A DNA stretch of 64,000 nucleotides from Alcaligenaceae bacterium (lineage in GTDB: Bacteria > Pseudomonadota > Gammaproteobacteria > Burkholderiales > Burkholderiaceae_B): contig JACCEP010000008.1 of assembly GCA_013416395.1 (NCBI GenBank), positions 124,001 through 188,000 of the forward strand, in the 5' to 3' direction. How positions within the stretch are numbered: position 1 is the stretch's first letter; every line of letters starts with the position of its first letter. This document shows, in pieces, positions 8,160 through 28,985 of the stretch. The position numbers and the translations under genes were made by a program. The notes under the pieces are model-generated. The model made no database searches and was not told the DNA's origin. It saw only the letters and a list, made by a program, of their open reading frames with translations.

Positions 8160-8179
8160 CTGGCATGGAGAACGTACAG

Positions 8180-9214: not shown

Positions 9215-9253
9215 TATTGCCATCTCTTTTTTAGACCGAATGCTGAGGAACTA

Positions 9254-10051: not shown

Positions 10052-10098
10052 GCGGTTTGGGTCGCCATTTCTAGCCGGGCTATGTTACGGTACGTGTT

Positions 10099-10119
10099 TT
10101 CAGACTGTTACCGTCTGAA
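10099..10119. promoter_or_regulatory. inverted repeat upstream of the amidohydrolase gene
   Basis: TTCAGAC (10099-10105) and GTCTGAA (10113-10119) are perfect 7-bp arms 34 bp before the chosen start. It could be an operator or a small hairpin ending the crotonase operon. There is no strong T-run on the plus strand. Confidence 0.3.
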
Positions 10120-10152
10120 TCCATAAAAACCATAATGGGGGCAAGGGGCTTG

Positions 10153-12045: not shown

Positions 12046-14482
12046 CTTCTGCAGATTGATCTTTCGGCGGCTTCTGGCATTACTCTTTTTCTTTGCGTCT
12101 GCATCAGTCTTTGCTCAGCAAGCTGATTGGACCGGAGAGTGGGACAGTACCTGGCGTAACCGCGCTGCCCGTGTAACGCTGAAGCAAACGGGTGAACAGG
12201 TCACCGGTACCTACAGGCTGTACGGTGGTTCTCTGGAAGGGGTGGTCAAAGGCCGTGAGTTTCAGGGGGTATGGAAGGAAGCGGGGCGACAGGGACCATT
12301 TGTCGCCGTCATGTCTGCCGATAATATGACGTATACCGCGAGGTTTGGCACGGGCGAATGGATGACCGGCATTAGGGTTGTCGATGACAACAAGTTTCTC
12401 GGACGAGAACTTGATCGGACTATTCCTGCCTTAACCATGTACCACTTCTTGTCAATCATGAATGCCGTCGGCCCCGGGCGCATGGAGTTGCAGAGCGAGG
12501 CATCGCAGCTCATTGATTTTACGCAGATACCAAACCTTGCCATCAGTGAGTTGGACTACACGCAGGCACTGTTTGCGGTATTAAACCGGTTGACCTTTCG
12601 TGTGTGGGGGATGCACGAGCCGTCTGCAGGCTCTGAGGTGTCTTTTACATTGCGACAGGCGGGAACCGAGGTGGCGCTGAACCTGCGTTTTAACAAAATA
12701 GGCGATCAGTGGTTTATTTCGCCTCCCCCCTTGCACGTGCTTGCAGAAACACGGCATGCCCTCGAAATGGCGCGCCCAAAAATGCAGAATGCCCAGCTGC
12801 AGGGCTTGCACTCCCCACGAGACACCATGCGTACGCTGGTTCAAGCCTTTTCAAGTGAAGGCGGGTCATTAGACCTAGCGATGTCCACGTTGAACATGTC
12901 GCACCTTTCAGCGCTGGCAAAAGAATACGAAGGGCCGAAGCTGGCCCGGTACATTAACCGGTCTTTGCAGCGAATTGGTTCACTGACATGGCAAGAGGTG
13001 CCAGACGATCCTAACCGAGACGCGGCTTATGTGCATTTTGAGCACCCCATGGGGCGCATTGCAATCGGGCCGACCGCTACCGAAAACGGCGTTGTTTGGC
13101 AATTTACGCCGGAAACCTTGCAGACGATCAGGTCTGTTTATGCCGCCCTGGATAATTTCCCTCCCGGCGAGGCCTCTTATCAGCAGTCTCCAAAAGAGAG
13201 TTTGTACTTTCAGGCACGAGACTTGGTCAGCAAGGGGTATACGGGCCTGGTAAGACAGCTGGGGCCTATGGAAGCCTGGCAATGGGTGGGCTTGCTCGTT
13301 GTTTTCATTTTTGCATACGTGTTGGGCAAGGTTCTCAACATGCTGTTCTACACGTTGGTGCTGGGGCGCTTCCAGCGTCCATCAGAACAGGCGCCGGTTG
13401 TTCGCTGGATGTTTCTGTGGTCATTTCGTTTGCTTGTTGTGGGCGTGGCACTGCGCTTATCAGACCGAGTATTAAGTTTTCCGGACTTCATCCAGGTTGC
13501 GCTGGTAACCATGAGCTGGACATGCATCATCCTGTCTTCCATGATGTTGATTCTGCTGGGCATAGGGATGATAGTCAATTATTTCAGGGCAAGTAATGTC
13601 GTACCCAGCAACCATTTGACACTCGTGTCGTTTGTTGCAGGCATTGCGCGTGTTGTGGTCGTCGTGTTTGCCATACTGTTGCTGGCCGAGGTGCTGCAAG
13701 TACCTTATCAAAGCGTGCTCGCCGGCCTGGGTATAGGTGGTTTGGCGGTGGCGCTGGCCGCGCAATCAACACTGCAAAACTTCATTTCAGGTATTACCCT
13801 GTATTTTGACAAACCCATTGCGGTGGGTGACTTCTGTCGATTCGGTGACAAGACTGGCACGGTCGAATTTATCGGTATGCGTTCAACGCGTATACGCACA
13901 TTGGCGCGTACGTTGCTCACTATTCCGAACAGCGAATTTTCGAACATGCAGATCGAAAACTACGCCAAGCGCGACAGCATATTTTTGAATTCCATTGTGA
14001 AACTTCGTCATGAGGCCTCGCCGGACCAGTTGCGCTTTCTTTTGGTGGAAATCAGAAGGCTTTTGCTAAGTCACCCGAAAGTTGCGGCAGACCCATTGAG
14101 GGTGCGGTTCGCCGGTTTCGGTGAGCATTCTTTAGACATCGAAATATTCGCTTATGTGTTGACCAAGGAATACACTGAGTTCGTCGCCGTGCGCGAAGAC
14201 ATTTATTTGCGGATCATGCAGCTCATCGAGGCGTCGGGGGTCAAGCTAGCCGTACCTTCTGTTGTGCATTACAACACCGAAGACCAACTGCCAGATCCGT
14301 CGGGTGGGCAAGCGAGCGAAGAGCACGTTGAACGTTGGCGCAAAGAAGGAACACTGCCGTTTCCCGACTTTCGCTGGCAAGACAAGGCAGACATGCGAGA
14401 AACACTTGACTACCCACCAGATGGTTCGCCGGCACGGTCTGAGAATGAGTCATCGGCGGACCCTGGTTTACCGTCTCGGTAG
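12032..14482 (+). CDS. large MscS-family mechanosensitive channel with exported N-terminal domain
   Basis: A protein of 816 residues. The signal peptide (RRLLALLFFFASASVFAQ) is followed by a soluble periplasmic region of about 370 residues that begins with a beta-rich WTGEWDSTWRN repeat-like domain. Several membrane segments follow (about 415-575) and then the MscS core: pore helix LAGLGIGGLAVALAAQSTL, the beta domain with DKPIAVGDFCRFGDKTGTVEFIGMRSTRIRT and a C-terminal alpha/beta domain. MscS channels release solutes on osmotic downshock. The ATG at 12032 follows an in-frame GTG at 12029 and overlaps the end of the amidohydrolase gene. The periplasmic domain could sense envelope state or a ligand (inference). 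Confidence 0.88.
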   Translation: MPRYNFCRLIFRRLLALLFFFASASVFAQQADWTGEWDSTWRNRAARVTLKQTGEQVTGTYRLYGGSLEGVVKGREFQGVWKEAGRQGPFVAVMSADNMTYTARFGTGEWMTGIRVVDDNKFLGRELDRTIPALTMYHFLSIMNAVGPGRMELQSEASQLIDFTQIPNLAISELDYTQALFAVLNRLTFRVWGMHEPSAGSEVSFTLRQAGTEVALNLRFNKIGDQWFISPPPLHVLAETRHALEMARPKMQNAQLQGLHSPRDTMRTLVQAFSSEGGSLDLAMSTLNMSHLSALAKEYEGPKLARYINRSLQRIGSLTWQEVPDDPNRDAAYVHFEHPMGRIAIGPTATENGVVWQFTPETLQTIRSVYAALDNFPPGEASYQQSPKESLYFQARDLVSKGYTGLVRQLGPMEAWQWVGLLVVFIFAYVLGKVLNMLFYTLVLGRFQRPSEQAPVVRWMFLWSFRLLVVGVALRLSDRVLSFPDFIQVALVTMSWTCIILSSMMLILLGIGMIVNYFRASNVVPSNHLTLVSFVAGIARVVVVVFAILLLAEVLQVPYQSVLAGLGIGGLAVALAAQSTLQNFISGITLYFDKPIAVGDFCRFGDKTGTVEFIGMRSTRIRTLARTLLTIPNSEFSNMQIENYAKRDSIFLNSIVKLRHEASPDQLRFLLVEIRRLLLSHPKVAADPLRVRFAGFGEHSLDIEIFAYVLTKEYTEFVAVREDIYLRIMQLIEASGVKLAVPSVVHYNTEDQLPDPSGGQASEEHVERWRKEGTLPFPDFRWQDKADMRETLDYPPDGSPARSENESSADPGLPSR

Positions 14483-14544
14483 TGTGTGCAAGTGCATTGT
14501 GGACACTGCTTCTCATTCGCTCGTCCAACGATTACTGCAGCCAT

Positions 14545-15759
14545 TTACCCGAACCGCACAGCCTCGTCGAATACGTTAGATAGCCAATCGTAGGCGCGTT
14601 GATGGTAGACGGAGCGGGCATTGGTCTGGCAGTGCCCGTCCGCGCCATCCGCTGCAGTAAAGGGCACCAGGTGTTTCTTGCTGCGCAAGGCATCAAGAAA
14701 GACTGGGGCAAACGCGCCCATAGCGTCTGATTCTGCCTGGGTGACGAGCACCGGGCATTGAATGTCTTTCACGCGATCCGACACAGTAAACTTGGCGGCC
14801 TCTTGTATATACTGCGCGAGCGTATCGACGCCATGGGCCCAGAAGCCCCGTTGAACGACAGACCAGCGCAGTGAGTGGTTGTCGTTGATAACGTGCATCA
14901 CCGGCGCCAACATATCGTCGGTAACGTCAGGTAATGCGTCGGCAAGCTCGTCAGCCCCAAACTTGCGCAGCATCGCCCGTATGGCTTCCAGTAAATCCCA
15001 CATGCCTGGGTCCACAATAAGTGCTGAAATGCGCGGCTCGGCGGCGGCCGCACGTGCGGCAAGCAGGCCGCCAAAACTCCATCCCACCAATGCGATTCGG
15101 CGGTTATCCACCTCAGGTCGTGTGATGATTTCATCGATGACAGCAGCAAGTACTTTTTCCCAGTCAGCACGCAGGTGCAGACCTTGCTCCATCAAAACCC
15201 TGCCCTGGCCAGGGCCGTCAAACGTCAGCACATTCCATCCCCGCCTTTGTGCCGCCACAGCATGGGCAAAATGCATGGTGTGCAGGGTTTCATCGTAGCC
15301 GTTTACGCAGATCAGCAGGGGGCGAGGCCCTGGCCCTGCCGAATAAAACCAGGCCGGCAATGTGGTGCCTTCAAAAGGGATTTCCATGCTTTGCAACGCT
15401 GGGGTGAACAGTGCTGCGGCACAACGAAATGCCGCTGTTTCACGCTGGTAGCCACTGATGACCCTGGGATCAACCGGGGCTCCATATAAAAGAGGGTAAG
15501 AATTGCGGTAGTAAGTAAATGCCCGTAAATACAATTGGCGTGCGCTGACCAGATGGCCGTAGCGTTGACATTGTTCGGCCTGATCAAACAGTGAATCGGC
15601 CATGTCTGTCCACGCTTGCTGCCAAGCGTGTCGATCACCCTCAGGGATACGCGTGGCAACGGCCAGGATCTCACCGATCTCGGCACCGCCTTCGGGAATA
15701 TTTAACAACGGACGTTGCAGCCACGTCTCAAAGAGGGGGTCGTCAAACGCGAGTTTCAT
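14545..15759 (-). CDS. alpha/beta hydrolase (FrsA / dihydroxypseudooxynicotine-hydrolase-like)
   Basis: The start is set at the ATG at 15759 (MKLAFDDPLFETW, 404 residues), preceded by GGGGA. A helical N-terminal region of about 160 residues precedes the alpha/beta core. The core has the oxyanion strand LICVNGYDETLH, the TFDGPGQGRVL loop and the nucleophile elbow GWSFGG (Ser). The catalytic aspartate probably lies in VLVTQAESDAMG and the histidine in DGHCQ near the C-terminus. The layout resembles FrsA and C-C bond hydrolases of the 2,6-dihydroxypseudooxynicotine type. The gene is convergent with the MscS gene and stands alone; the substrate is unknown. Confidence 0.8.
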   Translation of the reverse strand: MKLAFDDPLFETWLQRPLLNIPEGGAEIGEILAVATRIPEGDRHAWQQAWTDMADSLFDQAEQCQRYGHLVSARQLYLRAFTYYRNSYPLLYGAPVDPRVISGYQRETAAFRCAAALFTPALQSMEIPFEGTTLPAWFYSAGPGPRPLLICVNGYDETLHTMHFAHAVAAQRRGWNVLTFDGPGQGRVLMEQGLHLRADWEKVLAAVIDEIITRPEVDNRRIALVGWSFGGLLAARAAAAEPRISALIVDPGMWDLLEAIRAMLRKFGADELADALPDVTDDMLAPVMHVINDNHSLRWSVVQRGFWAHGVDTLAQYIQEAAKFTVSDRVKDIQCPVLVTQAESDAMGAFAPVFLDALRSKKHLVPFTAADGADGHCQTNARSVYHQRAYDWLSNVFDEAVRFG

Positions 15760-15988
15760 AGTGTCCCCAGCCCATGTTGGATTTATTTTGATCGTGCATA
15801 CCGTTTGCAGGGGCAAAGCACAGGGCAATCAAATCGGCGTAATGCTGCCAATAACGTCCTTTTGTTACTTCTTATGCTGGGGACGTCGTTACATTGCAGG
15901 CTTTACCCCATTGATAACGGTATTGAATGTATCAAGATTGACGCGAAATGGAAGGCCTGTCAACGAGGCCTAACCCTCGAATATACGG

Positions 15989-16681
15989 TCACTGCCCCCG
16001 CAGCGCGTTCACTTGTGTCGGTGATAAAGCCTGTTCGCGTTTCTGGGCTACCAGTTCGGGCATAACCGGCTTAATCTTCGATGTCTCGGTTTCGTTTCCC
16101 CAGGCCCCACGAATAAAATTAACGACGGCTGCGATCTCTGCGTCTGACAAATGATCCAGGGCCGGCATGCTGCCATTGAACTGCTGGCCTTTAGCTGTTA
16201 GTGGCCCGCTGATGCCATGCAGTACGACAAGCACCGGAAACGCCTGATCCTTGAAAAGATCTGAATTGCCTGCAAGCGGTGGGAAATAACCCGTTTGCCC
16301 CTTGCCTTGAGCACCATGACATGCAGCGCAATTCTGTTGCCAGACAGTCGCGCCATCAACGTTGGCAACCGGTGTGGCCACCTCGGCGGGTGGCGGGTTT
16401 GGGCCCAGGTAGGTCGTAAGGTATTCAATTACCTTGCTCTTGTCCTGATCACTAAGCTCTAGCCCGTAGTCTTTCATGCTGGCAACGACAGCTTCCCATT
16501 GAGCGGGAAGCAGCCCCTTGGCATCATTGACGTACTGCAGATCGTGACAAGCCTGGCATTTGGAGTAAACAATATTCGATCCGGGCCCATTGGGTATTCG
16601 GATCCCGGCACCCGCAGCGGTGGCACTTGCTGCCAGGAGTGCCGCCGCCGGCAACAGGCGGGTAAAGGCCAGTGCCATCAT
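15989..16681 (-). CDS. dihaem cytochrome c (SoxD/SorB-like) subunit
   Basis: The open frame extends to 16798, but the likely start is the ATG at 16681 (MMALAFTRLLPAAALLAASATAAGA). It shares one base with the stop of the molybdoenzyme gene (TAATG) and has GAGGTGG upstream. A signal peptide leads to a 205-residue periplasmic protein with two haem c sites, CQACH and CAACH, each with downstream methionine candidates (PALDHLSD after GSM is the second). Such cytochromes accept electrons from SoxC/SorA-type sulfite or sulfur dehydrogenases. The tight overlap argues for a stoichiometric complex. Confidence 0.88.
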   Translation of the reverse strand: MMALAFTRLLPAAALLAASATAAGAGIRIPNGPGSNIVYSKCQACHDLQYVNDAKGLLPAQWEAVVASMKDYGLELSDQDKSKVIEYLTTYLGPNPPPAEVATPVANVDGATVWQQNCAACHGAQGKGQTGYFPPLAGNSDLFKDQAFPVLVVLHGISGPLTAKGQQFNGSMPALDHLSDAEIAAVVNFIRGAWGNETETSKIKPVMPELVAQKREQALSPTQVNALRGQ

Positions 16682-17988
16682 TACGCCACCTCGAAAGGTA
16701 CCCGGTCGATCCCGTGCCAGTCCCAGCCACCTGGGTTCCACGTAATAAGGCCGCTCATTGGTTGCGTGCGGCCCCATGCGTCGGTAGCGCGCACCCAAAC
16801 CTCATACTTGCCCGGTTCGAGCTTTACGTGTGTGTTCCAGTAATGCCATGCATACGGGCCGTCAGAGTTATCGATGTCGGTAGTTTGCCACGTTTTGCCC
16901 TGGTCCAGTGATACGCGAATGTCGTCCAGAGACGCCAGCCCATCGTTCCACGCGACCCCCTTTAGCTCGACGTCGCCCGCTTTTGCCGTTTGCCCGGAAA
17001 GGGGTGCAAAGACCACACTCATGATGGCGAAGCCGTACGTGGGTGTACTGTTTTCACGGGTTAGGTCTTGCGTCGTGAATTTACCCGGTTCAACCGGCAT
17101 AATCGGCATGCGATATGTTTTCTGCATGATGGCGCTAGGGGTGGGCTCGTCCATGAGTAGCAGGTCGGTGAGCCACTTCACATTCATATTCCCGTAATAG
17201 CCAGGAATGATCAAGCGTACAGGCCCGCCGTGTACGGAGGGAATCGGCTTGCCATTCAGGCGAACCGCCAGAATGGCGTCGTCCATTTGTGGTGCCTCCA
17301 GATGGAAGCTTTTGATCATGTCAGCACCACCAGGAACCGGGGGCTCGTCCTTGCCATTGGCCGTCAAGAACCTAACGCTGGCCGCCGGGCTAAGGTCAAG
17401 ACTCTTGAGCAGTGCCTTAAGGGGCACACCTTCCCAGGTTAAGTTGGCCATTCCGCCGTGCTTCCAGCCTGAACCAGGCGTTTTTGCCTTGTCCCAATAA
17501 TATGAGCGACCATTGCCGGCGCACTGCATAACTGCCACGCGCTTTACATGATCCATTTGTTCCAGATCGGCGACCTTGATTGTTTTTGGTCGCTGCACCA
17601 GGCCTGACACCAGAATGGTCCAGTTTTGGATGGTTTCATGGCTTGCCGGATCGGTTGTGGCTATCCAAGAGCCTGCCCCATCGATGGGGAAGTGATTTCG
17701 ACTGTAGATGAGATCCACAGGCGTGGATCGATGTTCGCGCAGCAAATTGAGAGGTGTTTCCATCACCCCGAGTTTGCCGTTGTGCACAATCATCTCTGCG
17801 CTTTTGCCATGAATAATTGTTGCGCCAGTTGGTGCCGCGGCAGTGGGTGTGGCAGCAGTCTGGCTCTCTGCAGCGTGTGCCAACGAAGTAAAACCCGCAA
17901 CACTGCTTAAACCCACCGCTCCTCCGGCGGCACTGATAGTTTTCAGGAAGGTACGGCGGTCAATATTTCCTTCATTACGATAATTCAC
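16681..17988 (-). CDS. periplasmic sulfite oxidase / sulfur dehydrogenase, molybdopterin subunit (SoxC/SorA-like)
   Basis: A 435-residue protein with a twin-arginine leader (DRRTFLKTISAAGGAVG), so it is exported folded with its cofactor. The sulfite-oxidase molybdopterin domain includes the cysteine loop MQCAGNGRSYY (Mo ligand Cys) and HGGPVRLIIPGYYGNMNVKWL. The Mo-Co dimerisation domain follows (GVAWNDGLASLDDIRVSLDQGKTW, residues ~335-425). It oxidises sulfite or protein-bound sulfur and passes electrons to the dihaem cytochrome encoded next. AAGGAG precedes the ATG. No soxXYZAB genes are in the window, so it may work as a sulfite dehydrogenase. Confidence 0.9.
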   Translation of the reverse strand: MNYRNEGNIDRRTFLKTISAAGGAVGLSSVAGFTSLAHAAESQTAATPTAAAPTGATIIHGKSAEMIVHNGKLGVMETPLNLLREHRSTPVDLIYSRNHFPIDGAGSWIATTDPASHETIQNWTILVSGLVQRPKTIKVADLEQMDHVKRVAVMQCAGNGRSYYWDKAKTPGSGWKHGGMANLTWEGVPLKALLKSLDLSPAASVRFLTANGKDEPPVPGGADMIKSFHLEAPQMDDAILAVRLNGKPIPSVHGGPVRLIIPGYYGNMNVKWLTDLLLMDEPTPSAIMQKTYRMPIMPVEPGKFTTQDLTRENSTPTYGFAIMSVVFAPLSGQTAKAGDVELKGVAWNDGLASLDDIRVSLDQGKTWQTTDIDNSDGPYAWHYWNTHVKLEPGKYEVWVRATDAWGRTQPMSGLITWNPGGWDWHGIDRVPFEVA

Positions 17989-18298
17989 GCTACTCTCCTT
18001 TTACATCGGTTCGTAGATATGTCTCCACTTCCAAAATACTCCCCCAAAACCGGGTTAACAATAGGGTATTTGGATGTTATTGATTCACGCCTTGTCGATA
18101 GGCATCCGGTTGCATACAACACGGGCCCGCCTGGCAGTATGACTATGCAAAGCCATGCAAGCATCGCTATCAGCACTATGGGAATGCGCCCCGCGCATGA
18201 TGGATTGCTTGACAGTGGCTGGTTTGCTGGCGCAATAATGAAGCCCACAAACGGAACTGGCGTCTGAAGCCAGACCGAAAAAACCCTGAGAGGAAGAC
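17989..18298. other. divergent intergenic region between soxC-like and esterase genes
   Basis: This 310-bp gap holds the divergent promoters of the molybdoenzyme operon and the esterase gene. I see ribosome-binding sites at both ends (AAGGAGAG on the minus strand, GAGAGGAAG on the plus strand) but no convincing extra gene or operator. Confidence 0.4.
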
Positions 18299-19171
18299 AT
18301 GAAGCCAGCTTTAAAACTGATGACGGCGACTGCCGCGTCCCTGCTATTGGCAGCCCCGTCCTATGCAAGTGAGATTGTTCAGACGTCGTTCGAATCGCAG
18401 ACCCTGGGGCACGAGATAAAAATGGATGTCTACCTGCCAGATGGTTATGAGGAGGCCACCGATAAGTTCCCGGTTATCTATATGCTTCATGGGGCTGGCG
18501 CCAACGAGACCGCGTGGGTAATGAAAGGAGGTATTCAGGTAACAGCAGACCAGCTCATCATACGCAAAGAACTTCGTAAGTCAGTCATTGTGATGCCCAC
18601 CACGGGGCCAGAGTCTTGGTACACGGACGGGAATGCTGTCAAGGCCGAGACGGCCTTTATTGAAGACATAATCCCCTACGCAGAAAATCACTACAAGATC
18701 CGTAGCGACCGGGCGGGGCGTTCGATTGGAGGGCTTTCCATGGGTGGCTATGGTGCACTCAATCTGAGTCTCTCGCATCCAAAGCTATTTTGTGCAGCTG
18801 GCATCTTGAGCCCCGCCATATATGATCCATTCCCTCCAGCCACATCTGCATCGCGGCGCACCCCGCAATTCTCCAAAGATGGTAATTTTGATGAGGCTGC
18901 CTGGACGAAATCGCTCTATCCTGCAAGGCTGTCGTCCTATTATGACGCCAAGACTACTGTTCCCATGTGGATCGAATCAGGGGATCAGGATCGGTTCGGG
19001 ATTGTGCTCGCAGCCGCTAAGCTTTACTGGACGCTACACAAGGTGCAACCTGATGACATTGAGTATCGGGTGATCGATGGAAATCACGACTGGCTGGTTT
19101 TTCGTGAGTCTTCAGTGAGGGCTCTGCCCTACATGAGCAAGAAGTGTGAGGCGCTAGACAAAAAACCCTAA
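18299..19171 (+). CDS. exported esterase (esterase D / tributyrin-esterase family)
   Basis: A 290-residue protein with a cleavable signal peptide (MKPALKLMTATAASLLLAAPSYA). The alpha/beta fold shows FPVIYMLHGAGANETAW (oxyanion strand), the nucleophile motif GGLSMGGYGALN around residue 145, a likely acid in IESGDQDRFG and the catalytic histidine in DGNHDW. Members hydrolyse short-chain carboxyl esters, S-formylglutathione-like substrates or mycolyl-type esters. Export to the periplasm argues against the cytosolic S-formylglutathione role. A GAGAGGAAG ribosome-binding site precedes the ATG. It stands alone. Confidence 0.88.
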   Translation: MKPALKLMTATAASLLLAAPSYASEIVQTSFESQTLGHEIKMDVYLPDGYEEATDKFPVIYMLHGAGANETAWVMKGGIQVTADQLIIRKELRKSVIVMPTTGPESWYTDGNAVKAETAFIEDIIPYAENHYKIRSDRAGRSIGGLSMGGYGALNLSLSHPKLFCAAGILSPAIYDPFPPATSASRRTPQFSKDGNFDEAAWTKSLYPARLSSYYDAKTTVPMWIESGDQDRFGIVLAAAKLYWTLHKVQPDDIEYRVIDGNHDWLVFRESSVRALPYMSKKCEALDKKP

Positions 19172-19240
19172 TCGTAGAAGCAAACTCGGGCGGCGCACTG
19201 AGCAAATCGGTGCCCGCTACCAAGAATTTCTGAACCTTAG

Positions 19241-19356
19241 CTACTTTACAGACGGCACAACCTTTAGCAGGTCACCGTTGGGATCGTATACCTGCACCGT
19301 TGGAGGCATCCTTACCGTGAAATCGATCCCGTCAGCAGGGCGGGTAGAATGAAGGT
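19241..19356 (-). pseudogene. possible remnant of an unidentified gene (C-terminal fragment)
   Basis: On the minus strand a frame without a start reads TRPADGIDFTVRMPPTVQVYDPNGDLLKVVPSVK and then stops at 19241. The VQVYDPNGDLLKVV ending looks like the end of a real beta-rich protein (for example a vicinal-oxygen-chelate or propeller-type protein). An in-frame stop about 37 residues upstream leaves no gene. It may be a decayed fragment; chance is not excluded. Confidence 0.25.
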
Positions 19357-19400
19357 TCTAGGTGTAAATCAAAGTTTCTGTACAGCTTGAGGGCCGAGGT

Positions 19401-19835
19401 ATGAGCGAATCTTTGCATGTGGTATGTACACACTGTCATGCCGTGAACCGGGTGCCGGCGCTACGTATAGATGATGCGCCCACATGCGGGCGTTGCCAGC
19501 AGCCACTGTTTCAGGGTCTGCCGGTGGCGCTAGACGGCACTCATTTTGACAAACATCTGAAGGGCGACCTGCCGCTGGTGGTTGATTTTTGGGCGCCCTG
19601 GTGTGGGCCATGCAAAACTATGGCGCCCCAGTTCGCAGCGGCAGCGCAACAACTTGAGCCGCACATGAGGTTAGCCAAAATCGACACTGAGGCTGAACAA
19701 GCGCTTGGTGCACGATTCGGTATCCGCAGTATTCCGACAATGGTGCTGTTTCACAATGGCCGCGAGCTGGCCAGAAAATCGGGTGCATTGGCAACCCGCG
19801 ACATCGTCGCTTGGGCCCGCAGTGTGCTTAAGTGA
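19401..19835 (+). CDS. trxC: thioredoxin 2 (zinc-containing)
   Basis: A 144-residue protein with an N-terminal zinc ribbon (CTHC at residues ~9-12 and CGRC at ~29-32) followed by a thioredoxin domain with active site WAPWCGPCK and the cis-proline segment SIPTMVLF. This two-part layout defines TrxC, a cytosolic disulfide reductase that acts with thioredoxin reductase and is often induced by oxidative stress. GAGG lies upstream of the ATG. It is a single gene, converging on the PAS regulator gene. Confidence 0.95.
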   Translation: MSESLHVVCTHCHAVNRVPALRIDDAPTCGRCQQPLFQGLPVALDGTHFDKHLKGDLPLVVDFWAPWCGPCKTMAPQFAAAAQQLEPHMRLAKIDTEAEQALGARFGIRSIPTMVLFHNGRELARKSGALATRDIVAWARSVLK

Positions 19836-19930
19836 GCAATTCTTTATTATGAACAAAACCTCCGTTTTACGCGAGAGCTTGTCTGCCGTCTGAAGCCTCT
19901 TGTTAATCAGAGGACTCTGCAAGACCACGC

Positions 19931-20617
19931 TTACAAAAGCACCTCCACAGGATCGTAAAACCGGTAGCCTACGCCGCGCAGCGTTGCAACGGGCAGCTTC
20001 ATGCCGCTGCTTTGCTCTACTTTACGGCGCAAACGACGCATTTGCGAATCCATCCTGCGCTGATCGTATTCAAAGTAGTCCTGGCCGAGCGCAGCAATTA
20101 TCCTCTTGCGGCTGACTACCCCTGCGCCTGATGCCAAAACCTGCAGCACTAAATAGTCTTGGGAGGACAACGCGATTGGCTGCTGCCCAGGCGGCGTCAG
20201 GGTGGGAGGGGCGCCCGAGAGCTGCCAGCGCTTTGCGGCCGATGGCGGTACGGCCGTCGCGGTCTTGCTTTCTTCGCTCGGGTGTTCGGCAATTTCACGG
20301 GCGACCGCAACCCTTATCCCCTGATCGGGGTACCACCGGGCAGACCACATTATGTGAACCAGACTGCCGTCTTTGCGTACATAACGATTCTGAAAATTAA
20401 ACTGCAGATGCCCTTGCATCAGTCGCCCGACGGCCTCGATGGTTCGTTGACGTTCTGGTTCGTGGACCAGGTCGAGCATCTGACGACCAATCAGTTCGTG
20501 CTCTTTGTAACCAAAGATTCGTTCGCACGCCCCGTCTACAGAAAGAAAAATACCTTTTTCATTAACGACACAGACGGCGTCCAATAACAAGTCCATTAAA
20601 TGCGGTTTAGTGTTCAT
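19931..20617 (-). CDS. PAS-domain regulator with OmpR-type winged-helix DNA-binding domain
   Basis: A 228-residue soluble protein. The PAS domain spans about residues 5-115 (MDLLLDAVCVVNEKGIFLSV, FGYKEHELIGRQMLDLVHP-like, RYVRKDGSLVHIMWSARWY). A 30-residue Pro/Ala linker leads to a C-terminal OmpR/PhoB winged helix (ALSSQDYLVLQVLAS... VSRKRIIAALG... MRRLRRKVEQ... TLRGVGYRFY, residues ~148-225). There is no receiver or kinase domain, so it is a one-component sensor-regulator in which PAS replaces the phosphorylated receiver. It is divergent from the surface-adhesin operon across a 463-bp AT-rich region and is its most likely regulator (inference). Confidence 0.85.
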   Translation of the reverse strand: MNTKPHLMDLLLDAVCVVNEKGIFLSVDGACERIFGYKEHELIGRQMLDLVHEPERQRTIEAVGRLMQGHLQFNFQNRYVRKDGSLVHIMWSARWYPDQGIRVAVAREIAEHPSEESKTATAVPPSAAKRWQLSGAPPTLTPPGQQPIALSSQDYLVLQVLASGAGVVSRKRIIAALGQDYFEYDQRRMDSQMRRLRRKVEQSSGMKLPVATLRGVGYRFYDPVEVLL

Positions 20618-21080
20618 CGACTCATCATCATTTTGTTGAAATTTACTTACTTCGGGTTGCTTTTGTTCACTTTTGCTTATATCTGCTCAGACTTGCTCAG
20701 TTTCGACATATAACTCATCGATATAATTTGCAACCAATACTATCAAAATAAACCAGAGTGCGATATTGATATGACCCCTATTTATCGCTCGGCAGGCAAC
20801 GGCAGCATACGTTTCGAGACAAAAATTAAAAATCCTGCCTTTTTTCTTTTAAGCGCATGGTTGCCGCGTATCCGTTGATGCATGTTCACGTAACGAATCT
20901 GCAAGACTTGCTGGCCGTTTATGCATGTCTTTTTACCGGGAAAGTTGGCTTCCAACAAGCAAATCATGCTTTCCACATGCAACCTTATTTGCCAAATCAC
21001 AATTTGGATTGTGAAGCGCCCTAATTATGAAAAAACAAGCACTTACACTTTCTGTCACCGCAGCAAAAGGACAGGCCTCA
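20618..21080. other. AT-rich divergent control region of the adhesin operon
   Basis: This 463-bp gap separates the PAS/winged-helix gene from the first adhesin-system gene. It is markedly AT-richer than its surroundings, contains a CTCAGACTTGCTCAG direct repeat near 20685-20700 and a perfect inverted repeat at 20997-21014. A 55-codon frame (20857-21024) without a ribosome-binding site is probably not a gene. Confidence 0.45.
20997..21014. promoter_or_regulatory. inverted repeat upstream of the adhesin operon
   Basis: TCACAAT and ATTGTGA form perfect 7-bp arms with a TTGG centre, 67 bp before the likely GTG start of the first gene. The size fits a dimeric regulator binding site, and the divergent PAS/winged-helix protein is a candidate. 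It could also form a small hairpin in the leader. Confidence 0.4.
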
Positions 21081-21704
21081 GTGAATAAGCATCGTGTACG
21101 GCTGTCGCCTCTGGTTTTAAGTTGCCTGGGCCTGCTGTGCGCGGCAGCGGCACCTGTCGTCCATGCACAGGTATGGGCCTTCGAAGGGTTGCCCTGGCAG
21201 TTCGAGACGTCGGCCGATAAAGCCAACAAAGCAGGTGTGCTGGATATTATGGAAAGGAAAAAGGGTGGCTACTACGACTCATTCCAGACCACCAACTACA
21301 TCACCAACACCACCAACATCCAGCGGCAATACAACTGCGGGGTCACGGCTAACGCCACTGGCTCGATGGCTGACAGCGCGCAAGGCTCAACAGTATCGTC
21401 GCCAGTAACCACCAACACCAGCGGCAATTACCTGACGTCGACCGGAAACACCAGCAGCACAGGTGCAATGGATAGTTCCAGCTCCGGCTCAGCCGGGGCC
21501 AGCACGGATCAATCCAATACAGGCGCGGTATCGGCTGGCGTGAGAGGTTCGCCCAGTGATGCCAGCTCTGGGCAAATACACGCCGGCAGTGGCACAAGCT
21601 CACAAGCCTTGAATGTCAACCAATCTAATACGGGATCCCAGACGGCATCGCTGTCGGGAAGCACGGGATGCGCTTTTGGTTCCGGCGGCGTTGCCTTGAA
21701 CTAG
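21081..21704 (+). CDS. exported HfaA/curlin-like small Ser/Asn/Thr-rich protein
   Basis: The frame opens at an ATG at 21027, but a GTG at 21081 has AAAAGG 9 bp upstream and yields a normal signal peptide (VNKHRVRLSPLVLSCLGLL... VVHA-Q), so I choose it (207 residues). The mature protein starts QVWAFEGLPWQFE and contains IQRQYNCGVTANATG. It is very rich in Ser, Gly, Asn and Thr and repeats the element QSNTGAVSAG / QSNTGSQTASLSG, spaced like the Gln/Asn strand-loop repeats of curlins. By position beside a CsgG/HfaB-like channel gene (6-bp gap) it is the best counterpart of HfaA. The homology is weak and the function inferred. Confidence 0.6.
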   Translation: MNKHRVRLSPLVLSCLGLLCAAAAPVVHAQVWAFEGLPWQFETSADKANKAGVLDIMERKKGGYYDSFQTTNYITNTTNIQRQYNCGVTANATGSMADSAQGSTVSSPVTTNTSGNYLTSTGNTSSTGAMDSSSSGSAGASTDQSNTGAVSAGVRGSPSDASSGQIHAGSGTSSQALNVNQSNTGSQTASLSGSTGCAFGSGGVALN

Positions 21705-21710
21705 GTTCAC

Positions 21711-23138
21711 ATGAAAACGCAACCCAGATCCCCAGCGTCAGTTACATCTATTACAAGCATGAGCACAATGAATCCTGCCGTCAACTGCAAAACATCCTCC
21801 TTCAGCCGTGGTCTCATCGGAACCTCCCGGCGTTGGATGACTGCCTGCAGCTTGCTTGTGATACTTACCCTGACGGGCTGTGCTCCCATGATGACCATGG
21901 AAAAAATGGCCCCCGATGAAGCGCCGGTCTTGATGGGGTCTTCAGTTCGCAACAACCGCACGCCCATCGATGGTGCGTTCACGTGTCTGGCCAATGAAAT
22001 CGTGACCCAAAGAAAGCCACGCCTTTCCATTGCCGTGGGTGACGTCAAAGACTATACCGGCAAATACAGCCAGAATGACGGCAGCGCCATTACGCAGGGC
22101 GGAGCCCTGATGGTGTATTCGGCTCTGGGCAAAATGGGTGGGGCTATTCGACTGCAGGAACGCTTCGATACCCGTATCGCCGAGCTCGAACTGGCTTATA
22201 TAGACAGACGCCAGCTGGGCGATGGCGGCACCCATGCATTACAGACCCCGCAAGGGCAGGAGTCCGTTCCGTGGGTACCGTACTTTGGTGGCACCATTTT
22301 GCGTTCCAACTATTACATTGTTGGCGGCATTACCGAGCTGAACTACAACATTCAGTCGGGCGGTGGCCAGGTTCTTATTGGCGGCGTTGGTCCCAAGGCG
22401 CGCACATTTACCATGAGCATCGGCGTCGACTTGCGCATCATCGACACGCAAACCTTGACCGTGGTCGATACGGTCAGTCTGCAAAAACAAATCGTCGGCT
22501 TTGAAGTCGGCTTCGATACGTTCCGTTTTTTCGGCAGCAATCTGTTCGATATCAATTTGGGCGCGAAGAATATGGAGCCACTGCAACTGGGTGTGCGTAT
22601 CGCCCTAGAGCAAGGTGTGCTGGACTTGATCGGAGCAGTTACCCAGGTCGACCCGCAGGGCTGTCTGGACAAAGCGTTGGCAGCGGGTAAACCAGGGGTT
22701 GGGAGCAAGCCGGCAACCCCACCAGCAACACCTCAAGCTAGTCCTATCGCGCCTCCTGCTGCCCCACCCGCACCTATGGGCAAAGCGACAAATGCCGGCC
22801 CTGCCCTGGGTGGCACTAACTACCAAATCGCGTATGAGTTTGGCGATCCGAGCATCAGCCAGCAGTCGGGCTCGGTCATTGAGCGCATCGTAGCTGATGC
22901 CGCCGCACATAAAACGGTCGAGGTGCAGATTATTGCGCGGGACACTGAAAGCTGGTCTCCGATCAAGCGTCAGGAGTTAACTGGCCAGCGCGTCCGTAAC
23001 CTGCGCGATGCGCTGGCGGTGCGCGGTGTACACCCATCGCGCGTACGGACCACATGGGAACCCGCTGCAACCGACACATCCATACGGCGCGACGGCGCGG
23101 GATACCAGATTTTCGCAGTGGTTAGCATTACGCCGTAA
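21711..23138 (+). CDS. CsgG/HfaB-family outer-membrane secretion lipoprotein fused to an OmpA-like domain
   Basis: A 475-residue frame. The lipobox LTLTGC puts the lipidated Cys at residue 57, so the true start is probably internal (ATG at 21768 or 21837). Residues ~75-325 match the CsgG fold (LSIAVGDVKDYTGKYSQNDGS, SNYYIVGGITELNYNIQSGG, FTMSIGVDLRIIDTQTLTVVDTVS, GFEVG...). CsgG-type proteins form nonameric outer-membrane channels for curlin subunits, and HfaB is the holdfast-anchor version. A Pro/Ala linker (328-368) leads to an extra domain (370-475) with OmpA-like pattern (VEVQIIARDTES..., ELTGQRVRNLRDALAVRGV), which in that family binds peptidoglycan. The flanking genes encode its presumed cargo. 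Confidence 0.8.
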   Translation: MKTQPRSPASVTSITSMSTMNPAVNCKTSSFSRGLIGTSRRWMTACSLLVILTLTGCAPMMTMEKMAPDEAPVLMGSSVRNNRTPIDGAFTCLANEIVTQRKPRLSIAVGDVKDYTGKYSQNDGSAITQGGALMVYSALGKMGGAIRLQERFDTRIAELELAYIDRRQLGDGGTHALQTPQGQESVPWVPYFGGTILRSNYYIVGGITELNYNIQSGGGQVLIGGVGPKARTFTMSIGVDLRIIDTQTLTVVDTVSLQKQIVGFEVGFDTFRFFGSNLFDINLGAKNMEPLQLGVRIALEQGVLDLIGAVTQVDPQGCLDKALAAGKPGVGSKPATPPATPQASPIAPPAAPPAPMGKATNAGPALGGTNYQIAYEFGDPSISQQSGSVIERIVADAAAHKTVEVQIIARDTESWSPIKRQELTGQRVRNLRDALAVRGVHPSRVRTTWEPAATDTSIRRDGAGYQIFAVVSITP

Positions 23139-23253
23139 AGGTTCGGCGCTTATCAAACAATAAGGAGGGGGGTATGTGCGCGCCGATTTAACCCAGGCAA
23201 ACAGTAATACGCAGCAAAGAGATAAAAAATATGGCAAAACAACTGCCGACCGC

Positions 23254-23291
23254 CGCCCCTTGCGGTACAGCCTGGCTGTATCGCAAGGGCG
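23254..23291 (+). promoter_or_regulatory. strong intercistronic hairpin between the channel and large adhesin genes
   Basis: CCTTGCGGTACAG pairs with CTGTATCGCAAGG (one G-U pair) around a CCTGG loop, and flanking CGCC/GGCG extends the stem with one bulged base. There is no T-run. It lies in the 256-bp gap before the adhesin gene and is probably a processing, stability or attenuation element. A 32-codon frame (23231-23329) spans it but is probably not translated. Confidence 0.6.
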
Positions 23292-23394
23292 CCGTCGAAA
23301 GGTTCTATACGCCTGCAGTAGTTAACTGAATTGGCTTCGGCATGACTTGACGGGACCGCCGCAGCCAAAAACGAAGAACCTCATGGAGATTAAC

Positions 23395-26300
23395 ATGAAG
23401 AAACAGCCTAAATTTTCCAGTCGCGCGCGCTTGGCGCGCTCCACCGCCAGCGCATCTGGACTCGCCCTGATTATGGGCCTGGTTAATGTCGCCGTTGGTG
23501 CAAACACGACGCTTACAGTTGCGCCAACGATCGTAGACGCTACTAGTCTGAACATTGCAGCAACCGGGTCGCAATCAATCAATACGTCGCAATTTAGAGG
23601 CGGATCCACAACGGGCACGGTTGTGGGTTCGGGGTTTTCAGACCAGAATTCAGGAAGCTCGACAATTGTCGCGCCTGGCAACGTAGTATCCGCAGTAGCC
23701 ACCAGCAACACATCCACCAGCACGGCCACCAGCAATACGTTTGATACGTCTGCCGATTTTTCCATCAACTCGGCCCAGGCAGCAGTAGGCACCACAGGCT
23801 TAGTATCCACCACTATTTCCGGATCACCACTGGTCAATGTCGTGTTTTCGGCGCCAGTTAACGAAGCAACACTAAATAACAATACTGCAAACGCCGCCAC
23901 GTCGGTTAATCAAGCAAACGCATCGATTACCCAAACCAATCTGCAGGGCTTTGACACCGCTGTAGCAGGCAGCGCGAGCGTTAATCGCGAGGCAGCAACA
24001 CCGTTGCCGAAAATTGACGTCACTGCCAACGGCATGATTACTAATTATCAACAGGCAACCAATGCGGGCGGCGGGACCGGTTCCGGCGCAGCGATTACTG
24101 GCGCCTCATTAAACGTCGATGCAACAAGCACTGACGCAGGTAACCTTGCTGCAGGATCGACCATCACCCTTGCGGGCAATCAAGCTGTTGCCACGTATAG
24201 CGCTAATGACGCCAGCAGCCAATCTACGGGCACTGGCATGGCATTTGATGGCAGCCTTGCCATTGCCAACCTTCAAAATAATACCGACGGCTCTGGCACT
24301 GCGGCACCGACCGCCAGCATCACGGGCAGCGGTGTAACGGTAAGCACTGGCACCAACGCCATCAACGGCGATGTCACGGTATCGAAACAAAATTTCAACG
24401 CAACATCAGACGGCAATAGCGCCGTTAACAGCCTGGCGCTGGATGTGGCCACTGGTGTAACCGGCACAGCCGCAGGTAGCCCCTCAGCGGGTGCCAGTGC
24501 CGGAACAACCACGTTGTCCGCGTCCACCACCGGTGCTACCGTCGGAATCGCGAGTGCCCAGGGCAACCAGGGCGCCAATCTTGCGTCCTCGATTACCACC
24601 AGTAATCTTACTGTCGCCGGAAAGGGCGGGGCTGGTGCGATTACGCTGAGCAACAATAACTCGTTGGCGTCTGCCAACGGAAATACAGTAGCCAATACGC
24701 TGTCGCTCAACGCGGGCAACCTTGATGAGGCCAGCGGCACCATCGCCAATGCGCAAGCTAATACAGGCACTGCCGTGGCAGCAACCAATGACACCGCCAT
24801 AAGTGTTGTAGGCGCGGGCGGTGGGGCAATCGCGCATACGGGCCCGGTAGCCATCAGCGGCAACAGCATCGGCTCGTCGGCAGTGGGCAGCACAGCCGCC
24901 AATCTGACACTGGTGCAAGCCGATGCGAGCGTCGCATCAACAGCGGGTACAGCCGCATTTCTTACAAATAATAGCCAGTACAGCGACGGGGCCAGTACGG
25001 TTACCGCAACGACCAATGGCGCCATTCAGGCTAATCTGGCTGGTGCCACTTCCGCTAACGGTTTGATTGCTGACAACATCATCAGCAGCAGCGCCAAGGT
25101 CAATGTAGCCACCAACGGCACGGTGGCTACCGCCGGCTCAGGAGACTATACGGCTCGAATCAATAACGAGCAAAACAGTGAAAGTGATGCCCTTGCCACC
25201 ACAACGGGAAGTATGCTGGCAATCGGCAAAGTCAACACCGTGATCCCAGGTTCTGCCCTGACGCTTAGCGGCAACACCCTCAGCGCGTCAGCCAGCAACA
25301 ATGAAGCCACAAACACCTCCAGCAACAACGCAGCAGGCGCTTTGACCATGGGCTTAACAACCCCGCCGGGATCCTCTCTGTTACGCAACACCCAGGACTC
25401 CACCGAGGCGACCACCTCCACAGCGGGCAATACCGCGACAGTGCTGGGCATTGGGGCGACAGGTGCAGGCGACGTGCTGGGCAACACATTGACGTCCCAG
25501 GCTGTCGCCAACTCGGCGGCCAATGCGGTTGTATTGTCAGCGGGCACGTCCCTGAATGCCGTAGCAGCTGCTGATCCGACTTTGGTCAATTCCCAGCGGT
25601 CGACGTTGTCTTCTCTGACGTCCACCACCACAGGGATGGTGGGTATCGATGTCAGCGCCCCGCTGCAGGACAAGGTCAATGTCATCGGCAATACGCTACA
25701 GGCGACAGGCACCCGTAACGAAGCAGTCAATACCCTGGCGCTTGCCGCAGGGACGACGACTAGCGGGCTAGGGTCCATTGGGTCCAGCCAGAAAGCGTAT
25801 GGAAATACAACCGTCGCAGTTAAAACACCTGGCGTCGGCATTAGCATGAGGACAGCCGGCAGCACGGGAGTGGCCACAGTAAGCGGCAACACCCTACGCG
25901 CTTCGGCCAGGCAGAATCAGGCTGTCAACGACTACAGCAATACAGCCGGAACTACCTTGTCGACTGGGGGTGGAGATAGTCTGCTGAACAGCAACCAGAA
26001 TACCAGCGGCACGATTGCTTCCACAGTGGGCGGTACTGCGCCTTTGAGTGCCGCTAATCTGGGCATCGTGGCACTGGGCTCAGTCGGTGGCTCCGCCGAT
26101 GTCCTGGGCAATACCCTGCAGTCCGTGGCAGTCAGCAACTCGGTACAGAACACCGCAGCGTTGACGGCAGGCACAAGTCTGGATCTGGCGGCTGCTTCAG
26201 ATGCAACTCTATACAATTGGCAGAGATCGGTCCCTAGTCTGACCTCCACCACCAGGGGAAGCGTCGCAATCGATGCCGGCGGCGCGATAAGCGGCACGTC

Positions 26301-27189
26301 AAATGTCATCGACAATACGCTGCAGGCTATCGGCACCCAGAACGAAGCGTTCAACACGTTGACGCTGACCGCAGGCACGTCGATCAGTGGCGACGCATCG
26401 CTCGCCAATTACCAAGAAGTAGGTGGCACAACAACAGCCACCGTCGAAAGCGCCGGGGTCGGCATCGTGTCAACTGGCACTATCAATGATCAGGCCACGG
26501 TAAACGGCAATGCATTACAAAGCCAGGGTATTGCCAACCTGGCAAACAATACGTTGGCTATCGTTTCGGGCACAGGCAGCACAGCCGACGCGAATATTAG
26601 CAATAGCCAAACTGCGTTCTCCGAGGTAACTGCAAGCACCTCGCTGACTGGGCTAGTTGGCGTTGGCGTCGGCGGTTCACTGGAAGGGACAGCAACAGTG
26701 GGTTCCAATCGCATATCGGCGCTGGCGTTTGGCAATAATGCCGGCAATGCCCTGAACGCTACGGGCGGAGCCGGTGCCCTGAACGGCAATTTGTCCAGTT
26801 CCAGTACGCAGGTCAACCGGGGTGCTATCTCTGCCACGGTAACAGGCCTGGCAAGCGGGCCAACCGTCGGCGTGACAGCGGCTACGCCCTCTGTTGCGGG
26901 CTATACGGCTAACTTGCTTGGCAACCGCGTGTCTAGCACCGCTTATGGCAATAGTGCAGAAAACGTCCTGAACGCGTTGTCGACAGGCGCGATTTCGGCC
27001 AGTGCCCAGTTAGTTTCCAACCAGACCAATACCGGAAGAGTCACTGCAGTGGTGAGCAACGCTGGAATGGGCATCTCTGGCGTTGCGGGCGCACCTGCGG
27101 TTGCCGGAAGGTCGGTAATCAGCGGCAACACCATCAGTGCTACGGCAGTGGGCAACTCTTCTGTCAGCAAGATGATAATCGGCCAGTAA
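23395..27189 (+). CDS. giant repetitive surface adhesin / amyloid-like protein (HfaD-like)
   Basis: The start is the ATG at 23395 (MKKQPKFSSRARLARS), supported by GGAG 6 bp upstream, giving 1264 residues. A signal peptide ends near NVAVGA. The rest has almost no Cys and is built of Ala, Thr, Gly, Asn and Ser. About 15 units recur every 65-74 residues from ~261 to ~1244. Each has a core like GNTLQATGTRNEAVNTLALAAG followed by an N-x-Q element and T-x-G-x-VGI strand. The pattern suggests a beta-solenoid or amyloid fibre. With a CsgG/HfaB channel gene upstream it is the likely HfaD-type exported adhesin. It lacks an autotransporter barrel or LPXTG anchor. Confidence 0.75.
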   Translation: MKKQPKFSSRARLARSTASASGLALIMGLVNVAVGANTTLTVAPTIVDATSLNIAATGSQSINTSQFRGGSTTGTVVGSGFSDQNSGSSTIVAPGNVVSAVATSNTSTSTATSNTFDTSADFSINSAQAAVGTTGLVSTTISGSPLVNVVFSAPVNEATLNNNTANAATSVNQANASITQTNLQGFDTAVAGSASVNREAATPLPKIDVTANGMITNYQQATNAGGGTGSGAAITGASLNVDATSTDAGNLAAGSTITLAGNQAVATYSANDASSQSTGTGMAFDGSLAIANLQNNTDGSGTAAPTASITGSGVTVSTGTNAINGDVTVSKQNFNATSDGNSAVNSLALDVATGVTGTAAGSPSAGASAGTTTLSASTTGATVGIASAQGNQGANLASSITTSNLTVAGKGGAGAITLSNNNSLASANGNTVANTLSLNAGNLDEASGTIANAQANTGTAVAATNDTAISVVGAGGGAIAHTGPVAISGNSIGSSAVGSTAANLTLVQADASVASTAGTAAFLTNNSQYSDGASTVTATTNGAIQANLAGATSANGLIADNIISSSAKVNVATNGTVATAGSGDYTARINNEQNSESDALATTTGSMLAIGKVNTVIPGSALTLSGNTLSASASNNEATNTSSNNAAGALTMGLTTPPGSSLLRNTQDSTEATTSTAGNTATVLGIGATGAGDVLGNTLTSQAVANSAANAVVLSAGTSLNAVAAADPTLVNSQRSTLSSLTSTTTGMVGIDVSAPLQDKVNVIGNTLQATGTRNEAVNTLALAAGTTTSGLGSIGSSQKAYGNTTVAVKTPGVGISMRTAGSTGVATVSGNTLRASARQNQAVNDYSNTAGTTLSTGGGDSLLNSNQNTSGTIASTVGGTAPLSAANLGIVALGSVGGSADVLGNTLQSVAVSNSVQNTAALTAGTSLDLAAASDATLYNWQRSVPSLTSTTRGSVAIDAGGAISGTSNVIDNTLQAIGTQNEAFNTLTLTAGTSISGDASLANYQEVGGTTTATVESAGVGIVSTGTINDQATVNGNALQSQGIANLANNTLAIVSGTGSTADANISNSQTAFSEVTASTSLTGLVGVGVGGSLEGTATVGSNRISALAFGNNAGNALNATGGAGALNGNLSSSSTQVNRGAISATVTGLASGPTVGVTAATPSVAGYTANLLGNRVSSTAYGNSAENVLNALSTGAISASAQLVSNQTNTGRVTAVVSNAGMGISGVAGAPAVAGRSVISGNTISATAVGNSSVSKMIIGQ

Positions 27190-27213
27190 AAGCCGATTGT
27201 AGATGTGCAGGAG

Positions 27214-27249
27214 TTGATGCCGTGCTGGCTTTCAAGCGGCCGGCATCAA
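27214..27249 (+). terminator. first 3' hairpin of the adhesin operon
   Basis: TTGATGCCG (27214-27222) and CGGCATCAA (27241-27249) are perfect 9-bp arms with an 18-nt loop, 24 bp after the adhesin stop and 5 bp before the main terminator hairpin. Confidence 0.5.
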
Positions 27250-27253
27250 GAGG

Positions 27254-27290
27254 CGGCGATAAGAAGCTATTCTTATCGCCGTTTCTTTTT
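27254..27290 (+). terminator. strong rho-independent terminator of the adhesin operon
   Basis: A perfect 12-bp stem (CGGCGATAAGAA / TTCTTATCGCCG) with a GCTA loop is followed by TTTCTTTTT. It ends the three-gene adhesin operon and insulates it from the convergent ATPase gene. Confidence 0.9.
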
Positions 27291-27379: not shown

Positions 27380-28627
27380 CTACGCCAATGTTCCCCATAA
27401 TGAAGACAAGGGGGCGGCCCAGATCCCGTCTCCAAGCGGCAGGGTCTTGGTGCCGTCGTAAAGCAGCACGCCGAGTTTGAATTGATCCCCTGCGATGTCG
27501 GCTAGTTTTCTCAGGCCACGCAAATCGCTCTCCCTGATGGAGGCGGCAGCCTTTACCTCCACGCATACGAGATCGCCGACGGTGTTCTCTATGACGATAT
27601 CAACCTCGAACTTGTCAGCGTCACGGTAATACAGCAGACGATAGTCGCCTTCGGCTGTGGTCGTGTGCTTGAGTAGTTCGCCGAACACGAAGGTCTCCAA
27701 TGCATTGCCGAACCGCGTGCGGTCTCGCTGGATTTCTTCGGCAGTCAGATCGAGCAGCGTGGACAGCAAACCCGAATCGATGAATTGCAATTTTGGCGTT
27801 TTTACGACCCGGCTAAGTCTATTGTGAGCCCAGACGTCAACGCGCTTAAGCAGGTACATATGCTCAAAGATACTGACATACCGGGAAGCTGTCTTGCCAT
27901 CCAGCCCCGTCTGGCCACCCAGTTGCGTGTAGTTGCACATTTGCCCGGCTGTTTGGGCCAGCGCTCGAAGGAATCGTGGCAACTGGTCTAATTTTTCGAT
28001 ACTTGCCACGTCCCGAACGTCTCTTTGAATGAGGGCGTCGATATATTGACGTGACCATGCCGACCTGCGCCTGCTCGTCGCTCTGGAAATCACTTCCGGA
28101 TAGCCGCCGCGCAGCACGCGCTCGATGAGGTCGCGACCGATGGCAGGTTGAGTCGTGTTAAGAATATTCCCTGCAAAAGCACTGTCTATCCAGTTTGCTG
28201 AGTGCGACTCGATTTCGCTCTGCGATAAAGGTAACAGCGATACAGTTTCCATCCGGCCTGCCAGTGAGTCGGCAACGGTTGGCAGTGCCATCACGTTGGC
28301 CGAGCCGGTTAACAGAAAACGGCCGGGGCGTCGGTCTTCATCTACACTTTTCTTGATTGCCAGGAGCAACTGTGGTGCGCGCTGGATTTCGTCGATCACT
28401 GCTCGATCCAGGGAGCGAATCATGCCGACGGGATCCTGCTGTGCCGATAGCCGCATCAGCTCATCATCCATCGTCACGTACTGCAGTTGCCGTTGTTCTG
28501 CGATCTGGCGCACAAGCGTTGTCTTTCCGGCTTGACGAGGGCCAGCCACCAGGACTACAGGCGTGTCCAGCAAGGCTTCTGCTATTTGCGACTGAATACC
28601 TCGCGAGTACAGGGGTATCGTGCTCAT
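27380..28627 (-). CDS. AAA family ATPase with DUF4143 C-terminal domain
   Basis: A 415-residue protein. The Walker A motif GPRQAGKTT is at residues 29-37, and the Walker B-like segment AVIDEIQRAPQLL is near residue 85. A sensor-like LLTGSANV follows and then a winged region. The C-terminal DUF4143 domain ends with FGNALETFVFGELLKH and a VDIVIENTVGDLVCVEVK motif resembling a PD-(D/E)XK nuclease core. The biological role of this widespread family is unknown. There is no Shine-Dalgarno sequence; the message may be leaderless from TACACT just upstream. Five 22-bp direct repeats begin 13 bp upstream of the ATG and probably control it. Confidence 0.88.
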   Translation of the reverse strand: MSTIPLYSRGIQSQIAEALLDTPVVLVAGPRQAGKTTLVRQIAEQRQLQYVTMDDELMRLSAQQDPVGMIRSLDRAVIDEIQRAPQLLLAIKKSVDEDRRPGRFLLTGSANVMALPTVADSLAGRMETVSLLPLSQSEIESHSANWIDSAFAGNILNTTQPAIGRDLIERVLRGGYPEVISRATSRRRSAWSRQYIDALIQRDVRDVASIEKLDQLPRFLRALAQTAGQMCNYTQLGGQTGLDGKTASRYVSIFEHMYLLKRVDVWAHNRLSRVVKTPKLQFIDSGLLSTLLDLTAEEIQRDRTRFGNALETFVFGELLKHTTTAEGDYRLLYYRDADKFEVDIVIENTVGDLVCVEVKAAASIRESDLRGLRKLADIAGDQFKLGVLLYDGTKTLPLGDGIWAAPLSSLWGTLA

Positions 28628-28909: not shown

Positions 28910-28985
28910 TGGTGGCCTGGGGCGGAATCGAACCACCGACACAAGGATTTTCAATCCTCTGCTCTACCGACTGAGCTACCAGGCC
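28910..28985 (-). tRNA. tRNA-Phe (anticodon GAA)
   Basis: The minus strand folds as a full cloverleaf of 76 nt: the acceptor GGCCTGG pairs with CCAGGCC, the D-arm contains AGCTCAGTCGGTAGAGC, the anticodon loop is TTGAAAA (anticodon GAA), the T-arm contains GGTTCGATTCC, and the 3' CCA is encoded. A -10-like TATTAT lies about 15 bp upstream at 29006-29001. Confidence 0.97.

Follow-up and report, generated by a model that had tools for sequence, protein, structure and literature searches.

Within a 64,000-nucleotide stretch of contig JACCEP010000008.1 from an Alcaligenaceae bacterium (the whole of which we call the window) lies a cassette of three genes, coding for a small exported protein, a predicted outer-membrane pore lipoprotein of HfaB/CsgG type and a giant exported repeat protein. 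Previously known CsgG pores belong to curli and, as judged by homology, to holdfast anchoring, HfaA-HfaB-HfaD being the holdfast anchor of Caulobacter. In our reading the cassette is a self-contained system for secretion and display, representing a third lineage within the CsgG exporter family whose cargo is a giant beta-solenoid adhesin or fibre; we place the probability of this reading at about two in three. A preliminary description had proposed a CsgG/HfaB-type exporter with dedicated cargo genes, which profile matches and a conserved gene set now support; its further proposal of a lineage distinct from both curli and HfaABD agrees with a separate clade of pores and with flanking proteins that are missed by the HfaA and HfaD models. 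The cassette is not curli, nor is it by membership a holdfast anchor; it probably works like these systems, yet as a distinct and unnamed variant.

The pore and its lineage

The central gene (21711-23138, plus strand) codes for a 475-residue protein with the lipobox LTGC and the lipobox cysteine at position 57. It had been described as having a CsgG fold, and the profiles agree: CsgG (PF03783) is matched at 55.4 bits, over the Pfam cut-off of 20.8, and the HfaB equivalog model (NF037935) is matched over residues 51-312 (21861-22646) at 220.9 bits (E 1.6e-65; 222.8 bits in the genome search), short of that model's cut-off of 300. CsgG structures in the PDB were also matched (E 2.6e-8). The loop that aligns with the CsgG constriction has four residues fewer than its counterpart in the CsgG encoded elsewhere in the genome. 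The C-terminal domain (residues 365-475, 22803-23135) resembles Pal/OmpA lipoproteins, with the difference that here it forms a tail fused behind the CsgG/HfaB domain. A profile of this tail, built from 42 of the 73 full-length pore proteins, matched Pal structures at E 1.9e-10; Pfam OmpA was found in 25 of the 42 family members scanned at E 0.01, and the window pore's own tail scored 19.9 bits, below the OmpA cut-off of 27.2. Such a tail is present in 63 of the 73 full-length proteins and missing from the four canonical HfaB and CsgG sequences in our alignment.

Our tree holds 91 of 124 HfaB/CsgG rows picked by profile, 33 having been dropped by hand in thinning Variovorax, sphingomonads and a genus here labelled g34. 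Cassette-type pores form one clade of 52 rows (support 100/99, stem 1.77), a count that includes L060 and L061 because these are the pores of genomes G472 and G490, which have giants at loci L072 and L073. Caulobacter-type HfaB (17 rows, 98/96) and CsgG (12 rows, 100/100) make up further clades, and rows L062-L064, L067 and those of g34 fall outside both the cassette clade and the Caulobacter-type HfaB clade. The pores of loci L164 and L165, which are without giants, group with canonical HfaB.

The giant and its small partner

The giant gene (23383-27189, plus strand) encodes 1268 residues from its ATG at 23383; the length of about 1264 residues given earlier corresponds to the ATG at 23395, which is preceded six bases upstream by GGAG. 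Its repeats are approximately 65-75 residues long, with Asn and Gln as the most conserved positions, and the repeat array (24181-27186) shows 15 long predicted strands whose starts lie 65-89 residues apart, the conserved Asn and Gln being regularly spaced in the C-terminal two thirds of the protein, in keeping with the amyloid-like repeat design first suggested. Repeat units were read by eye, in agreement with the alignment and the structure model; a motif regular expression alone gave three sites. The AlphaFold2 model is all-beta and solenoid-like, with a predicted local distance difference test score (pLDDT) of 84.5 and a predicted template modelling score (pTM) of 0.87. In a control set of 1530 open reading frames (ORFs) plus their reversed copies, a profile of the window giant's repeats picked up giants and matched no HfaD-position protein; in a second round four reversed ORFs scored E 0.012-0.025. 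The window genome has a single giant. Its relative Allopusillimonas ginsengisoli has three in tandem (L069 2925-12000, L032 3955-7803), of which the middle copy carries one in-frame stop codon; identity is 77% between copies 1 and 3, and these two share 80% and 78% with the window giant.

The small protein (21027-21704, plus strand, 225 residues) stands in the HfaA position, looks exported and is rich in Ser, Thr, Asn, Gln and Gly. An alignment of 51 family members shows a conserved N-terminal segment with the consensus WQFxTSADKANxAAVxDxIxKKxxGYY, two invariant cysteines and, in the last third of the protein, two Q-x-N-x-G motifs. Between the small protein and the C-terminus of the giant there is weak profile similarity (probability 50.4%), and PDB sequence searches with the profiles of either protein gave no matches. 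The ratio of nonsynonymous to synonymous substitution rates (dN/dS) against A. ginsengisoli is 0.11 for the small protein, 0.11 for the pore and 0.31 for the giant; thus, the small protein and the pore are under strong selection against amino-acid change, and the giant under weaker but clear selection.

Distribution, surroundings and control

Synteny was surveyed in one scan of named genomes, which returned at least 80 pore loci; counts out of 80 here and below are among the matches listed. A homologue of the small protein, sought with a profile of four such proteins, adjoins the pore gene in 77 of the 80 loci, the exceptions being L164, L165 and L166. An uninterrupted giant, 990-2103 codons long when counted from stop to stop, begins within 1.5 kb downstream of the pore gene in 61, and a separate homologue search added L155, giving 62. 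In the remaining loci the giant runs off the end of the sequence (four loci), is interrupted (L090, L128, L129), is replaced by a short protein behind a pore outside the cassette clade (L164, L165) or was not seen (L141, L147), and in the last seven the available sequence breaks off within the pore gene or no more than 722 bases from it. Pore homologues occur in Comamonadaceae, Alcaligenaceae, Sphingomonadales, Rhizobiales and Rhodobacterales, and in metagenome-assembled genomes labelled Caulobacteraceae, Acetobacteraceae and Gammaproteobacteria; family names are read from the tree for the loci that it shows. Carriers include Variovorax, Novosphingobium, Sphingomonas, Xenophilus, Aureimonas, Shimia and Limnohabitans. 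The cassette is sporadic, since the small-protein profile matched three of 398 phylum genomes (a sample that includes the window genome); the pore gene is present in two of the five genomes of the genus examined, and the A. ginsengisoli pore is 91% identical to that of the window.

A strong HfaB match (above 200 bits) was found in 19 of 250 family genomes, namely the window genome, A. ginsengisoli, G012 and 16 of genus g34. The g34 loci, of which ten of 16 surroundings were examined (L034-L041, L070, L071), have another HfaB type with short HfaD-position proteins and no giants, mostly with a small HfaA-position protein, and lie beside nadA- and nadC-like genes (named by eye). Plasmids of Vibrio alginolyticus and Photobacterium (L168, L169) carry genes of the CsgG/HfaB family with small hypothetical neighbours.

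The layout originally given for the window, with the small exported protein, the CsgG-fold lipoprotein, the giant, a terminator and a divergent regulator, holds in every part. The terminator (27249-27286, plus strand) is a 17-pair hairpin followed by a T-rich tail, and over 113 nt the folding z-score relative to shuffled sequences is -5.0; a simple terminator scan did not list this hairpin. A divergent intergenic region of 409 bp (20618-21026), presumed to hold the promoters and with no sigma-70-like site listed, separates the small gene from the regulator gene (19931-20617, minus strand), whose product combines PAS (PF08447, 47.8 bits) with an OmpR-type winged helix (PF00486, 47.6 bits) and has no receiver domain. 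Its dN/dS against A. ginsengisoli is 0.14. That this is the system's own one-component regulator is not supported by the survey: phmmer found a full-length match in one of the 80 loci, that of the sister species A. ginsengisoli, and weaker matches in two others, L158 and, covering the winged helix, L091. The PAS/winged-helix regulator is a divergent neighbour and not a conserved part of the cassette.

Genes of a GGDEF/EAL-type cluster (cyclic di-GMP) lie near the cassette in 19 of the 80 loci; 18 of the 20 genes lie upstream of the cassette, 18 of the 20 are on the same strand, and Pfam confirmed EAL on all three members scanned. On a Variovorax paradoxus plasmid the cassette sits between EAL genes and is annotated piecemeal, as hypothetical proteins and, for the giant, an S-layer family protein. 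Directly after the giant of L108 (14341-15105) is a gene for a secreted-looking protein with a peptidoglycan-binding domain (PF01471), whose cluster occurs in seven of the 80 loci. In the window an AAA-ATPase-like gene (27380-28627, named by eye) lies just 3' of the cassette, and most of it aligns to nothing in the stretches compared from A. ginsengisoli; farther on is tRNA-Phe (28910-28985), beside hemA. Alignment to all four congeners stops at the 3' end of this tRNA, which suggested a genomic island in the window. Such an island is not supported, as in three of the four congeners this site is occupied by a shared element, in which an integrase-like gene adjoins the tRNA and conjugation-like genes lie further on (by eye). 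An integrase-like gene is present in the fourth as well (again by eye), and the window contains the searched 22-base tRNA-Phe stretch only once.

Relation to known systems and proposed working

The cassette resembles HfaABD in that two exported proteins rich in Ser, Thr, Asn and Gln, one small and one larger, flank an HfaB-type lipoprotein, the same order as at L077, L079 and L083, and HfaB is the closest named model for its pore; short stretches of both window partners moreover share Q-x-N-x-G and A-x-G-N motifs with HfaA- and HfaD-position proteins. These points would suit a divergent holdfast anchor in which the small protein is HfaA and the giant is HfaD, jointly fixing a polysaccharide adhesin to the cell, but we consider this improbable. 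The HfaA model (NF037934) does not match the window small protein and is listed for none of its 51 homologues, the HfaD model (NF037936) matches neither the window giant nor that of L072, and the window genome contains no match to either, whereas both identify their targets at the canonical locus L079 (91.5 and 170 bits), the only one of the three loci on which these models were confirmed. Membership in HfaABD is therefore not supported. The hhalign probabilities for the two homologies, which we rejected, were likewise low: the small protein gave 8.8% against eight HfaA-position proteins (and 57.5% against three others, L074-L076), each alignment being mostly signal peptide, and the giant C-termini gave 1.9%, 0.5% and 0.2% against three HfaD sets (11 of 14 HfaD-position proteins, with L074-L076 left out). 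A remote common origin of the giant and HfaD repeat motifs is nonetheless possible, because the giant scores of 24.7, 18.2 and 15.0 beat 14 of 15 column-shuffled controls (8.3-17.2). Further differences are the cargo, at approximately 980-2100 residues against 195-584 in 14 short-type HfaD-position proteins, and pores that form a clade of their own and mostly bear the OmpA-like tail.

Curlin repeats, too, carry conserved Asn and Gln, and the giants could be imagined to polymerise end to end in a curli-like amyloid, nucleated by the small protein, instead of serving as single-chain adhesins. The CsgG-type exporter, the regular Asn/Gln spacing, the tandem giants of A. ginsengisoli and the weak similarity between the small protein and the giant C-terminus all fit such an amyloid, which we nevertheless think unlikely: polymerisation would be dispensable since one chain already holds about 15 repeats, and the curlin repeat (PF07012) matches neither the small protein nor the giant, while detecting the genome's own curlin at 46 bits. 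The cargo is, as first noted, some eight times the length of CsgA (model length 150). The accompanying claim that CsgE, CsgF and curlin are lacking stands for the four window proteins (Pfam, NCBIfam) and fails for the genome, which has a separate complete curli-type locus (L045, G000:C41:292001-307736) with CsgE at 109.3 bits, CsgF at 29.5 and CsgG at 215.2. The best structural neighbour of the giant model among 34 chains compared is EtpA, a two-partner-secretion beta-helical adhesin; no solved curlin was in that list, so that the search is uninformative on curlin-like folds. Aligned residues are spread over about 1090 model residues, and the coil of the giant thus seems wider than that of EtpA. 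A giant exported by a two-partner-secretion or autotransporter-type machine, with the HfaB pore serving the small protein only, would be favoured by EtpA as nearest neighbour but is very unlikely given that the window giant has no such Pfam or NCBIfam domain, that six further giants have no Pfam match at E 0.01, and that a giant follows the pore gene within 1.5 kb in 62 of 80 loci. No more credible is an adhesin for mating contact of conjugative elements, despite the Variovorax plasmid and a TrbI-type gene upstream in nine of the 80 loci, all of sphingomonads (Pfam confirmed TrbI and CagX at L136 and a T2SSE-family ATPase at L127): the remaining 71 loci gave no TrbI cluster (some have short flanks, and other conjugation families were not searched systematically), and ORFs of at least 170 residues in window positions 1-20000 show no conjugation genes by eye.

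Returning to the third exporter lineage, we infer export, docking, pore function, surface location and adhesion as follows. The HfaB-type lipoprotein would form a CsgG-like pore in the outer membrane, and its OmpA/Pal-like tail, which suggests anchoring to peptidoglycan, would probably grip that layer and hold the pore in place within the envelope. The giant, bearing a Sec-type signal, would cross the pore unfolded and fold outside the cell into a long beta-solenoid, the Asn and Gln of each repeat of about 67 residues stacking on those of the next; its repeats suggest that the product is stiff, a surface adhesin or fibre. The small protein would leave through the same pore as an adaptor, docking on it by the conserved N-terminal segment and capping or templating the giant with its Q-x-N-x-G motifs. 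Export of both cargo proteins through the pore is the most likely mechanism in the light of published findings on HfaB and CsgG, HfaA and HfaD localisation requiring HfaB (PMC6707917). The presence of EAL genes nearby in some relatives suggests that the cassette is controlled along with the change to a sessile life, and together with the tail and the repeats this makes surface adhesion the likely role of the cassette. A more specific version we hold tentatively, at somewhat under even odds: a third CsgG-family branch with a peptidoglycan-tethered pore, an 'amyloid in one chain' (1000-2100 residues, about 15 or more stacked repeats, one wide coil per approximately 67 residues) and a dedicated cap adaptor, spread between Alpha- and Betaproteobacteria and plasmid-borne in at least one case.

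Among the open-access PMC titles listed, none concerned this cassette. If our reading is true, the same type of pore serves far longer cargo than in known CsgG systems, and this lineage adds an OmpA/Pal-like tail to it. The work would give a name to a cassette found in soil, plant and freshwater bacteria (Variovorax, Novosphingobium, Limnohabitans), and the conserved Asn/Gln pattern would offer a direct test of whether a single chain can build an amyloid-like stack.

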